Shown: piece after piece, positions 11,794 through 15,476 of the stretch
Layout: each line of letters begins with the position of its first letter
Position numbering within the stretch: position 1 is the stretch's first letter
Assembly (NCBI GenBank): GCA_018825785.1
Contig: JAHKAY010000054.1
Span: 1-43,799 of the forward strand
Source: Chloroflexota bacterium
Lineage (GTDB): Bacteria > Chloroflexota > Dehalococcoidia > JACVQG01 > JAHKAY01
Reading direction: 5' to 3'
Length of the DNA: 43,799 nucleotides
Notes under the pieces: model-generated
The model's input: the letters and a program-made list of their open reading frames with translations, nothing else
Databases searched by the model: none
What the model was told of the DNA's origin: nothing
Program-made: the position numbers and the translations under genes

Positions 11794-12399
11794 ATGTCTA
11801 TTTCGGTGCGCGCAATGACTCTGGCCGATGTGGACCAGGTTATGGAGATAGAAAGGGAGGCCTTCCCCACCCAGTGGCCCCCCACCTCCTTCCGACGGGA
11901 ACTGCAGAACCGCCTGGCCCATTACTTCGTCGCCAGGGACGATAAGGTCAAGGTGGGCATACCATCCAGCCCTCAAGCAAGAAGGGGCTGGTTCTGGCGC
12001 CTTCTCCGCAGCCAGCCCCCGCGGGGGGAGGCCCCCCTGGTGGTGGCGGTGGGGGGGATATGGATGCTCTATGATGAGGCCCACGTCACTACCGTGGCTG
12101 TAAGGGAAGCCTATCGCCGCCAGGGCATCGCCGAGCTACTCCTCATCAAGGCTATTGAGAGGGCCCAGGAGCTGGGGGCCGGGATGATGACCCTGGAGGT
12201 CAGGGTCTCCAACCTGGCCGCCCAGGCCCTGTATGAGAAATGCGGCTTCCGCCGGCTGGGGGTGCGGCGGGGATACTATTCCGATAACCACGAGGATGGC
12301 ATCATCATGACCACCGACCCCTTTACCTCAGCCCCCTTCCAGGCCCTCTTCCAGCGCTTGAAGGAGGACCATACCCGCCGCTGGGGAGTTCGGCTATAG
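11794..12399 (+). CDS. rimI: GNAT N-acetyltransferase, RimI-like
   Basis: 201 residues. The GNAT fold is visible: 'VRAMTLADVDQVMEIEREAF' (motif C/D strand-helix), acetyl-CoA loop 'VREAYRRQGIAELLL' (R/Q-x-x-G-x-A), and 'TLEVRVSNLAAQALYEKCGF' which is the RimI signature with the conserved Asn and Tyr. RimI acetylates the N-terminal Ala of ribosomal protein S18. It has an insert of about 25 residues (around 55-80, Arg/Pro-rich) not usual in E. coli RimI, and a C-terminal extension, so another protein substrate is possible. tsaB/tsaD, frequent partners, are not adjacent. The 3' end overlaps the convergent nrpR gene by six bases. Confidence 0.85.
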   Translation: MSISVRAMTLADVDQVMEIEREAFPTQWPPTSFRRELQNRLAHYFVARDDKVKVGIPSSPQARRGWFWRLLRSQPPRGEAPLVVAVGGIWMLYDEAHVTTVAVREAYRRQGIAELLLIKAIERAQELGAGMMTLEVRVSNLAAQALYEKCGFRRLGVRRGYYSDNHEDGIIMTTDPFTSAPFQALFQRLKEDHTRRWGVRL

Positions 12400-13389
12400 C
12401 TCCCGGAAGTTGACCAGGTCCTGGTAGTCTATTACCCCGCTCATAGCGAAACTGTGGACTTCAATCCCCGATTCCACCGCCGCAGCCACCGGGTTAAGGC
12501 CGCCCAGGAGGACCACCCCCACCTTGTTCAGGCTCACCGGTATCTGACAGCAGGGCTCGCTTACCTCCCCCGTGACCAGGAGGCCCCCCAGTCCAGCCTT
12601 CCTCAATCCCACCACCACCTCCTCCGCCAGGGGACGGCAGAGGGCGGGGACCTCCCTGAAGTTGGCCAAGAGCTTCCCTTCCCCCTTCCTGGCTACCTCC
12701 AGGACACTGGTCATCCGGCTGGTGATGAATATCTCCGAGGGGTCCAGGGAAGACCCCGAGTATTCAACCAGCTCAACAAAGCGGTAGGGCTTCCTGTCCC
12801 TTATCTGGAGAAGGCCGCCGAAACGGGAGTCCATGGGAATGCCAACCTTGAGCAGGCAGCCATTGACGACGATGCTACATACCGAGGCGAAGCCGACCTG
12901 GCCCTGGGGGACGAGGACATCCCCTAACCTCTCCCCCCCACGGGCTACAGCTACCAGGGGGCTCACGCAAAGACCCGCCTCAAAGGCCTCCTTCATCGCC
13001 GGGAGGGCCTTCTTGAAGTCGCTCCGGAGAAAAAAGGAGATATTCATGGGCACCAGACCGGTGCGGCTCTTGCAGTCAAAGGTGGTGCGGAAGGCCAGGG
13101 ACTCGATCTTGGAGATGACGAAGCCCACCTTATCCCCTACCAGGGCATTCTGGAGCTCCTCCTCCCCCAGTAGGGTGAGGACCCGGCCATCCCGGCCTAC
13201 AAGCTGGGTGAGGCCCCTCTCATCCATAATCTTCAGGTGGTAGCGCACCGCCCGCTCCCCCAGCTCCACGCCGTGACCCTTGAGCCGGCGGGCAATAACC
13301 CTGGCCCCCACCAACTCCGGTGAGTCCCGCAGCACCCTGAGGATGGAGATAATTTTCCTCTCTACCTCCACCCTATCCTGCCCTATCAT
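12394..13389 (-). CDS. nrpR: NrpR-family transcriptional regulator (winged helix plus NrpR domain)
   Basis: 331 residues from ATG 13389, preferred because GGGAGGGG sits just ahead; ORF could extend six residues. N-terminal winged helix (about 5-75, 'VERKIISILRVLRDSPELVG', 'ERAVRYHLKIMDERGL') and one NrpR/DUF128 ligand-sensing domain (about 85-325) with 'LAFRTTFDCKSRTGLVPMNI', 'FASVCSIVVNGCLL', 'GIPMDSRFGGLLQI' and a C-terminal 'KVGVVLLGGLNPVAAAVESG'. NrpR represses nitrogen-assimilation genes in methanogens and is released by 2-oxoglutarate. Here it follows glutamate synthase and a ferredoxin, whose promoter carries an NrpR-like palindrome, so it probably controls its own operon. Confidence 0.9.
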   Translation of the reverse strand: MIGQDRVEVERKIISILRVLRDSPELVGARVIARRLKGHGVELGERAVRYHLKIMDERGLTQLVGRDGRVLTLLGEEELQNALVGDKVGFVISKIESLAFRTTFDCKSRTGLVPMNISFFLRSDFKKALPAMKEAFEAGLCVSPLVAVARGGERLGDVLVPQGQVGFASVCSIVVNGCLLKVGIPMDSRFGGLLQIRDRKPYRFVELVEYSGSSLDPSEIFITSRMTSVLEVARKGEGKLLANFREVPALCRPLAEEVVVGLRKAGLGGLLVTGEVSEPCCQIPVSLNKVGVVLLGGLNPVAAAVESGIEVHSFAMSGVIDYQDLVNFREL

Positions 13390-13438
13390 CGCCCCTCCCA
13401 CCAGCATAGCCCTGGCCGGGGGAAGTTTCCAGGGGAAA

Positions 13439-13672
13439 TCAGAGGGATTCGGCCACAGGCTCTTTGGAGTCCCTCATCATCCACTGAACGCTCTTGTGCT
13501 CCAGGGGCTTCTCCAGGCTCCAGGTTATGCAGCTCTTTCGGCACAGGCCGCAGCCAATACACAGGGCGGGGATGACCTCCACCTTCTGGTCGCTGATGCG
13601 AATGGCATTGGTGGGGCATACAGGTTCACAATAGGGGACCGGACAATAGCGGGGGCAAAGGACCTTTGTCAT
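13439..13672 (-). CDS. Small ferredoxin, two [4Fe-4S] clusters likely
   Basis: 77 residues, AGGAGG four bases before ATG 13672. Eight cysteines in two groups: the second is canonical (C38-x2-C-x2-C-x3-C, 'CIGCGLCRKSC'), while the first is irregular (C6-x3-C10-x4-C15-x3-C19-P). It probably delivers electrons to the glutamate synthase encoded eight bases upstream; archaeal-type glutamate synthases often have such a ferredoxin-like partner. Forty-nine bases separate it from nrpR. Confidence 0.85.
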   Translation of the reverse strand: MTKVLCPRYCPVPYCEPVCPTNAIRISDQKVEVIPALCIGCGLCRKSCITWSLEKPLEHKSVQWMMRDSKEPVAESL

Positions 13673-13680
13673 AGTGCCTC

Positions 13681-15246
13681 CTATCCTCCCAGAATCCTGC
13701 CTACCTCATCCCTGTCGGCATCCATAACATAGGGGATACCGGAGACTTCAGCAGCCTCCCGGGTGAGGGCCATAAGGTCACTGCGCTCCAGATGGGGCAG
13801 GGCAAACTTTCGGGCCCCGGCCATGAGCTGCTGGAGGCCAGTGGCCAACCGGTCATAGTAGGTGTAAATGCCCATGGCGGCCGGTGGTATGCGGACGAAG
13901 TCCTTGCCGTATTTCTCCTTGAGCTGGGCCGCCCCGGCAAAGACCCTGAGCAGGCCCGCCTGGCGCTCCTCAGGGTTGTCCCCATTCTTCCCGGCGACAA
14001 AGCGGCCATGCGTGCCCCCCACCATCCCCGCCAGCATCGTGGCCCGGCCAAGGCACACCCCCTTCACGTAGGGGGCGCCCATCGCGATCGCTTTGAAGAC
14101 GTGGTCTTCCAGGCAGAGCCCCCCGGCGATGGCACAGTCGGGGACAAAGGCCCCCTTCTTAGCCAGCCTGCCCAGGTAGTCGTAGAGCAGGGATTCCAGG
14201 TACACCGTGGGCACGCCCCACTCGTTCATCATCCGCCACGGGCTCATGCCGGTGCCTCCCCCCGAGCCGTCAACCGTCAGCAGGTCAATCCTGGCCTCGG
14301 AGGCGCACTTCACCGCCAGGGCCAGGTCCCGGGGACGGTAGGCCCCCGTCTTGAGGAAAACGTACTTCGCGCCCGCGTTCCTCAGGTGCTCCACGGATTT
14401 CACAAAGCCCCCCGCATCCACCATCCCCAGCCGGGAATGCCTCTCGAACTCCCGGAAGCCTCCAGTCTTGAAGGCCTCCTGGACCGAGTGGTCTTCCGGG
14501 TCGGGGAGGACAATATAGCCCCGCTTCTTGAGCTGGAGGGCTCTCTCCAGGCTGGGGAGCTTCACCTCACCGCCAATATCTTTGGCGCCCTGCCCCCACT
14601 TGATCTCTATGACCTCCACCCCCAGCTTCTCGGCGACATACTCCGGCACCCCGAGCCGCCCGTCCTCCACGTTGAACTGCGCCACCACGGCGCCGTAGCC
14701 GTCGTACCAGTCCTTGAAGGTCTTTATACGCCTCTCCATCTCCGGGGAGCGGACTATGCGGCCGCTCTTAATCTCGGCCTGAGGGTCCATCGCGCAGACG
14801 TTCTCTCCTATCACCACCATGGTGCCGGCGATGGCGGCCCCCACAGCGCAGCCCTCCCAGTTCACCCGGGCTATCTCGGTGGAGCCCATGGCCCCGGAGA
14901 AGAAGGGCACCCGCAGCTTGAGTTTGTCCTTTCCCCCGACCTTCGTGGAGACGTCCACGTTGGGGAAGAGGGCCTTGTCGGAGTCCGCAGCCGCCCCCAC
15001 TGCCCCCACGCAGCTCCCCTGGATGTTGAAGTGGGAGAAGTCGACGGGGAATTCCTTCTCCGACCCGGCGATGACCTTGCCGAAGGGCTGGGGGTACATC
15101 ACCGCCCTGCCCTTGACCGCCGACCGGCCCACCTCACAGTAGCCCGGACAGCCATCAATACAGGTGACACATATGCCCGAGGGAGAGGGCGCCACCCGGT
15201 TCGTGGTGAGGGTGGCAACGCTGGCATTGGCCCGGTTCAGAGTCAC
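13681..15246 (-). CDS. gltB: Glutamate synthase, FMN/Fe-S synthase domain (archaeal type)
   Basis: 521 residues, GTG 15246 with a perfect AAGGAGGT five bases ahead. The N-terminal segment has clustered cysteines (C25, C28, C32, C36: 'CVTCIDGCPGYC'). The rest is the glutamate synthase central/FMN domain: 'GAKYVFLKTGAYRPRDLALA', 'VDGSGGGTGMSPWRMMNEWG', 'IAGGLCLEDHVFKAIAMGA', 'CLGRATMLAG'. It makes glutamate from 2-oxoglutarate and ammonia released from glutamine. The glutaminase domain of bacterial GltB (about 1500 residues) is absent, as in archaeal enzymes where it is a separate protein; that partner is not in the window. Regulated probably by NrpR. Confidence 0.92.
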   Translation of the reverse strand: MTLNRANASVATLTTNRVAPSPSGICVTCIDGCPGYCEVGRSAVKGRAVMYPQPFGKVIAGSEKEFPVDFSHFNIQGSCVGAVGAAADSDKALFPNVDVSTKVGGKDKLKLRVPFFSGAMGSTEIARVNWEGCAVGAAIAGTMVVIGENVCAMDPQAEIKSGRIVRSPEMERRIKTFKDWYDGYGAVVAQFNVEDGRLGVPEYVAEKLGVEVIEIKWGQGAKDIGGEVKLPSLERALQLKKRGYIVLPDPEDHSVQEAFKTGGFREFERHSRLGMVDAGGFVKSVEHLRNAGAKYVFLKTGAYRPRDLALAVKCASEARIDLLTVDGSGGGTGMSPWRMMNEWGVPTVYLESLLYDYLGRLAKKGAFVPDCAIAGGLCLEDHVFKAIAMGAPYVKGVCLGRATMLAGMVGGTHGRFVAGKNGDNPEERQAGLLRVFAGAAQLKEKYGKDFVRIPPAAMGIYTYYDRLATGLQQLMAGARKFALPHLERSDLMALTREAAEVSGIPYVMDADRDEVGRILGG

Positions 15247-15294
15247 AAAGACCTCCTTCTTTTCAGTCCTGTTGTTTCAAACGTGTTACCCAAA

Positions 15295-15310
15295 CGGCAA
15301 CCATTTGCCG
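15295..15310. promoter_or_regulatory. Candidate NrpR operator (GGCA-N6-TGCC palindrome)
   Basis: CGGCAACCATTTGCCG is a perfect 6+4+6 inverted repeat, equal to GGCA-N6-TGCC. It begins at the base after the glutamate synthase -10 box and covers the predicted transcription start. Known NrpR operators have the same geometry (GGAA-N6-TTCC in Methanococcus, GGTA-N6-TACC in Methanosarcina). A related half-site GGTTGCC lies in the -35/-10 spacer (15326-15332). Confidence 0.7.
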
Positions 15311-15339
15311 ACTCTACCACTTCTTGGCAACCGTGTCAA
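15311..15339 (-). promoter_or_regulatory. Promoter of the glutamate synthase operon
   Basis: Reverse strand: perfect -35 TTGACA (15339-15334), 17-base spacer, -10 TAGAGT (15316-15311). Predicted start near 15304, in the centre of the adjoining palindrome, giving a leader of about 58 bases. Confidence 0.75.
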
Positions 15340-15365
15340 TACTGGCAGGCGGGAGAGAAAATGAA

Positions 15366-15439
15366 TGCCCCCAAGGGGATTCGAACCCCTGATTACCGGC
15401 TTGAAAGGCCGGTGTCCTAGGCCACTAGACGATGGGGGC
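15366..15439 (-). tRNA. tRNA-Glu (anticodon TTC)
   Basis: A 74-base cloverleaf on the reverse strand. The acceptor arms GCCCCCA and TGGGGGC pair fully, with discriminator A and no encoded CCA. The anticodon arm CCGGC/GCCGG encloses loop CTTTCAA, giving anticodon TTC; the T arm AGGGG-TTCGAAT-CCCCT is standard. CCA must therefore be added by the Cca enzyme encoded at 23763-25187. Confidence 0.97.
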
Positions 15440-15446
15440 CACAGAG

Positions 15447-15476
15447 AGTATATCAGCCCCCACTGGCAAGGGGCAA
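15447..15476 (-). promoter_or_regulatory. Promoter of tRNA-Glu
   Basis: Reverse strand: -35 TTGCCC (15476-15471), 18-base spacer, -10 TATACT (15452-15447). The expected start, near 15440, is within a base or two of the mature tRNA 5' end. Confidence 0.5.

Follow-up and report, generated by a model that had tools for sequence, protein, structure and literature searches.

A conserved palindrome as the probable NrpR operator at nrpR and glutamate-synthase start sites in Dehalococcoidia

Introduction

In Dehalococcoidia, the class that includes the organohalide-respiring Dehalococcoides, comparative sequence evidence makes it very probable that the archaeal-type nitrogen repressor NrpR occupies a conserved palindrome where transcription of its own gene and of glutamate-synthase operons starts. 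To our knowledge, NrpR is known experimentally only from archaea. Homologues in Dehalococcoides were noted in 2007 (PMC1852104), and NrpR was attributed to "certain Bacteria" in 2009 (PMC2723118); these belong to the same protein family and the same class as the proteins described here, and their presence is all that was reported. The literature searched, with most subscription journals outside its scope, holds no description of a Dehalococcoides NrpR operator or regulon, and an earlier description is possible. The occurrence of NrpR in Dehalococcoidia is already known; the binding site and the target set proposed here appear to be new relative to that literature.

The analysis starts from a 43,799-nt stretch of DNA (the window) from a 1.59 Mb genome that falls, like Dehalococcoides, in this class. 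This genome has two nrpR copies, nrpR1 in the window and nrpR2, which closes a second operon (operon 2). In two relatives of the class, each with one chromosome (1.36 and 1.52 Mb), there are 27-28 reductive dehalogenase matches, as would be expected of Dehalococcoides. Nearly all named NrpR relatives come from Dehalococcoidia, and among the 80 matches listed the genome-contig scan contains bacterial records only. In records labelled Syntrophaceae, Syntrophales or Deltaproteobacteria (L185, L194, L200, L202), the operator precedes the matched start of nrpR by 10-11 bp; either the gene left Chloroflexota by transfer or the contigs are misbinned.

The window promoter and its palindrome

On the minus strand of the window, a -35 box TTGACA (15334..15339) and a -10 box TAGAGT (15311..15316) are separated by 17 nt and match the consensus at 10/12 positions. 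The -10 box directly abuts the putative NrpR operator, CGGCAA-ATGG-TTGCCG (15295..15310, minus strand), which lies over the expected transcription start. The original observation of a perfect palindrome right after the -10 box is confirmed and can be extended: the palindrome is 16 bp long, its arms have 6 bp rather than the four bases first described, and its first base is directly 3' of the -10 hexamer. The 4-base arms alone are no evidence, since the window has two copies of GGCA-N6-TGCC where chance predicts 1.97, and their significance in isolation is rejected; CGGCAA-N4-TTGCCG with at most one mismatch is found once against 0.07 expected. What carries information is the whole 16-bp sequence together with its location directly next to the -10 box.

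A GGTTGCC half-site, also noted originally, is present within the promoter spacer (15326..15332, minus strand). Across the class, such spacer half-sites accompany 5/71 sites, only weakly above chance (shuffled mean 1.9, maximum 5), and the element is rejected as a generally conserved one.

The window operon

Downstream on the same strand follow genes for a GltB-like FMN-domain protein (13681..15246, 521 aa), a small 4Fe-4S ferredoxin (13439..13672, 77 aa; Pfam Fer4 25 bits, LdpA_Fe-S-bd 30 bits) and NrpR1 (12394..13407), separated by 8 and 31 nt. The first has a GTG start and a ribosome site, AAGGAGG, at 15252-15258. NrpR1 combines a winged helix-turn-helix with one NRD domain and has 337 aa if read from ATG 13407; its relatives point to ATG 13389 (MIGQDR...) instead. 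The region 13380-15460 yielded no terminator-like site, and the three genes apparently form one operon. A tRNA-Glu(TTC) gene lies just upstream of this glutamate-linked operon on the same strand (15366-15439).

The operon had been proposed earlier as gltB-ferredoxin-nrpR, and its gene order, gaps and lack of a terminator-like site bear this out; the reading of "gltB" as the glutamate synthase large subunit is not supported. The protein matches PF01645 in part (51 bits, residues 281-406 only, where GltB2 of operon 2 scores 469 bits), is without a GATase domain and, like all 19 aligned relatives, without the C-x5-C-x4-C 3Fe-4S motif; the N-terminal cysteines C26/29/33/37 are invariant in the alignment of relatives. 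A structural model (pLDDT 68) matched FMN alpha-hydroxyacid oxidases as well as glutamate synthase, the fold being a generic FMN barrel, and a PDB sequence search gave no match. Judged from its sequence, the protein is a divergent FMN-domain paralogue, and the true glutamate synthase sits in operon 2.

A split glutamate synthase in operon 2

Operon 2 encodes, in order, an Fe-S protein, an FAD oxidoreductase, a GATase, the 501-aa GltB2, a GXGXG protein and NrpR2. The GATase, Glu_synthase and GXGXG domains that define glutamate synthase are all present, as is the C-x5-C-x4-C motif, here CTVCQQCHTGKC, and by domain content the operon is a complete split glutamate synthase. It resembles the archaeal-type enzyme in that the GATase, the FMN/central domain and GXGXG are separate genes; it differs in its additional FAD oxidoreductase, DmsB-like Fe-S protein and nrpR, and in that the genome also has the GltB-like window protein as a separate paralogue. 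The promoter of operon 2, TTGACA-N17-TATGAT followed immediately by AGGCAAACGGTTGCCG, is laid out as in the window operon: in both nrpR operons of the genome, TTGACA-N17 and a -10 box are directly followed by (C/A)GGCAAA(T/C)GGTTGCCG. A tRNA-Met gene lies upstream of operon 2 on the opposite strand.

Conservation of the site across Dehalococcoidia

The palindrome is enriched around nrpR genes of the class. GGCAA-N4-TTGCC occurs 9 times in 30 stretches (474 kb) around these genes against 0-3 times for 29 permuted arms, and 19 times in 80 named loci (959 kb) against 0-5 for permuted arms. When every 4-base dyad upstream of nrpR was counted with no preset motif, the commonest were TAGG-N10-CCTA (17/80) and GGCA-N6-TGCC (16/80; controls 0.4-0.5). 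The class pattern GG[C/A/T]AA-N4-TT[G/T/A]CC, usually right after a -10 box, lies within 150 bp upstream of nrpR at 53/80 named loci versus 0-2/80 random segments; one mismatch raises this to 65/80 versus 4-6, among them L178, a contig-edge artefact. At several loci where nrpR itself has no site (L127-L130, L171, L191), nrpR is inside an operon and the site is at the operon's first gene. Absence or lack of conservation of the palindrome at orthologous promoters had been named as the refuting outcome; the comparison shows the opposite, with the palindrome conserved at most of these nrpR loci and at 42/42 glutamate-synthase operons of nrpR-containing genomes.

The 71 non-redundant sites have the consensus (C/A)GG[C/A/T]AAACGGTTGCC(T/G), a table in which the search pattern dictated the outer dyad bases, so that information comes from the free positions and the flanks alone. 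Of the 71 sites, 65 score strongly for a sigma-70-like promoter versus 5 when shuffled, and the end of the -10 box falls most commonly 1-2 bp upstream of the operator, lending comparative support to the predicted NrpR operator over the start region.

In 23/58 nrpR promoters (L127-L206) there is an additional half-site, TNCC, 7 bp beyond the dyad (offset +17 from the operator's first G), and 5/10 glutamate-synthase (Fe-S gene) promoters have the mirrored form, GGNA, at -7; the window site has no such element. The extra half-site suggests that more than one dimer may bind.

NrpR proteins and the operator code

NrpR1 matches PF01995 (NRD1_2) at 275 bits (cut-off 25) and, in its N-terminal winged helix-turn-helix, PF08461 (HTH_12) at 67 bits (cut-off 21.4), with a profile match of E 2e-39. 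Its AF2 model (pLDDT 78) superimposes on the NRD of MJ0159 (3nek) with a TM of 0.86 by target length and 28% identity. From the helix-turn-helix alignment and the model, ERAVRYHLK is the likely recognition helix; it is common to NrpR1 and NrpR2, which fits their common operator.

The Methanococcus maripaludis NrpR and its GGAA-N6-TTCC operator are reportedly the work of Lie and Leigh. The Dehalococcoidia proteins share with this NrpR the winged helix-turn-helix and NRD, the GGNA-N6-TNCC dyad, whose matching arm spacing had been noted earlier, and sites at nitrogen-gene promoters; they differ in their bacterial sigma-70-type promoters, a base 3 that is mostly C and one NRD per protein. The published methanogen consensus is GGAAN6TTCC (PMC2723118). 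The GGCA arms had been taken for a variant specificity, a view that is rejected: position 3 is C, A or T in 55, 25 and 20% of the 71 sites (its partner G, T or A in 56, 30 and 14%), and exact GGAA-N6-TTCC (L134, L146, L148, G090) and GGTA-N6-TACC (L131, L162, L176, G123) occur in the class at the same positions as GGCA sites. The third base thus seems to be loosely read, and the GGNA-N6-TNCC code at the promoters inferred as regulated is common with methanogens.

Predicted targets

The predicted targets are glutamate synthase and nrpR itself, whereas NrpR of M. maripaludis acts on nif, glnA and glnK-amtB; here, moreover, nrpR belongs to the operons under its predicted control. The expectation of operators at glnA and amtB fails in the host genome: GGNA-N6-TNCC was found neither upstream of amtB (with a PII gene) and glnA on contig C2 nor upstream of a second glnA, so that both are rejected as targets there, and the operators at glnA and glnK/amtB that mark a methanogen-type regulon are absent. 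Loose genome-wide scans (CGGCAAN4TTGCCD, WHGGHAN6TDCCDW and a 2-mismatch scan of the own genome) gave counts near background, so the regulon is not readable from loose patterns; the remaining exact consensus matches are mostly inside genes or in genomes without nrpR.

In relatives, NrpR-marked operons include hisF or hisH (L153 8998-9771, L138 3192-3962, L114 3289-3906), which would tie histidine synthesis to the same control. In a Dehalococcoides genome, a gene for a SufC-like ABC ATPase has an exact GGCAA-N4-TTGCC 86 bp ahead of it (L112 4764), either a target or a chance match.

A start-site repression model

From protein family, site, promoter layout, conservation and co-occurrence with nrpR we infer binding, repression and 2-oxoglutarate as inducer, and consider it highly likely that the palindrome is the NrpR operator, with start-site repression of both operons, release by 2-oxoglutarate and autoregulation. 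With sufficient nitrogen, an NrpR dimer would occupy GGNAA-N4-TTNCC just downstream of the -10 box and block RNA polymerase at the start site, keeping the gltB-like/ferredoxin/nrpR1 operon off; at the second copy of the site, the split glutamate-synthase operon ending in nrpR2 would also be off. Under nitrogen shortage, 2-oxoglutarate, which glutamate synthase uses as its carbon substrate, would bind the NRD domain and release the repressor. Because nrpR lies inside the operons that it would control, the circuit would be autoregulated; the earlier proposal of autoregulation by an archaeal-type regulator in a bacterium gains comparative support from the site upstream of nrpR on sigma-70-type promoters. 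Start-region repression is the best reading of the position and conservation of the site, and relief by 2-oxoglutarate the best reading by homology to methanogen NrpR, whose repression 2-oxoglutarate relieves (PMC9765008).

Ferredoxins and flavoproteins among the targets, together with an identity to the MJ0159 NRD of only 28%, would also suit an NrpR that binds the site but senses a signal other than 2-oxoglutarate, or that is partly an activator or a redox-linked switch. We regard this as unlikely: the targets are mainly glutamate synthase and the glutamine users hisF/hisH, an operator over the start site fits repression, and methanogen NrpR does respond to 2-oxoglutarate (PMC9765008).

NrpR as the binder

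Orthologous glutamate-synthase operons were compared in 49 genomes of the class, 42 with and 7 without nrpR. A site was scored when the 300 bp preceding the Fe-S gene contained GG[CAT]A-N6-T[GAT]CC, or GGCAA-N4-TTGCC with no more than one mismatch. By this criterion 42/42 genomes with nrpR have it versus 1/7 without (shuffled pass rate 3.7%); the Fisher p of 5e-7 is overstated because there are few independent events on the tree, 2 supported independent pairs and 4 on the best tree. Genomes with the operon type have nrpR in 48/55 cases versus 41/199 for the others, counts that take no account of relatedness. At least one strong genome-wide match to the strict symmetric consensus is found in 29/89 genomes with nrpR versus 11/165 without. 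The nrpR contrast and the site upstream of nrpR support NrpR as the binder and autoregulation. Counting against it are the 11 genomes just mentioned, the site-like GGCAGATTTTTGCC at the glutamate-synthase promoter of a genome without nrpR (G069, L265), which is a relic, the sign of a missed nrpR or chance, and a second NrpR type (YGxxLSERAVRYHLRITDERGYT; L036, L048-L052, L054, L055) with no GGNA-N6-TNCC within 300 bp upstream.

As nrpR and glt genes stand together in many operons, linkage alone cannot separate NrpR from a different glutamate-synthesis regulator that commonly accompanies these operons and binds the palindrome, nrpR being a passenger. Such a regulator is quite improbable: the site precedes nrpR where nrpR leads the operon (the 53/80 loci), it precedes the glt operon even when nrpR is elsewhere in the genome (G038, G042), the same operon is without it in 6/7 genomes lacking nrpR, and the sites obey the published NrpR code (PMC2723118). 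That the palindrome is a chance feature, as the first-written GGCA-N6-TGCC with about two expected per window might suggest, is ruled out for practical purposes by the full palindrome, its position and its class-wide conservation.

Implications

The fuller picture, to which we give an even chance, is that Dehalococcoidia NrpR is a dedicated glutamate-synthase repressor at bacterial start sites, with a degenerate base 3 and, in many promoters, a third half-site suggesting more than one dimer. Dehalococcoidia would have a nitrogen-control circuit concrete enough to be tested, centred on a regulator whose experimental record is otherwise archaeal. The DNA code would be unchanged while serving sigma-70-type promoters, and the predicted operator may be used for regulon mapping in cultured strains.
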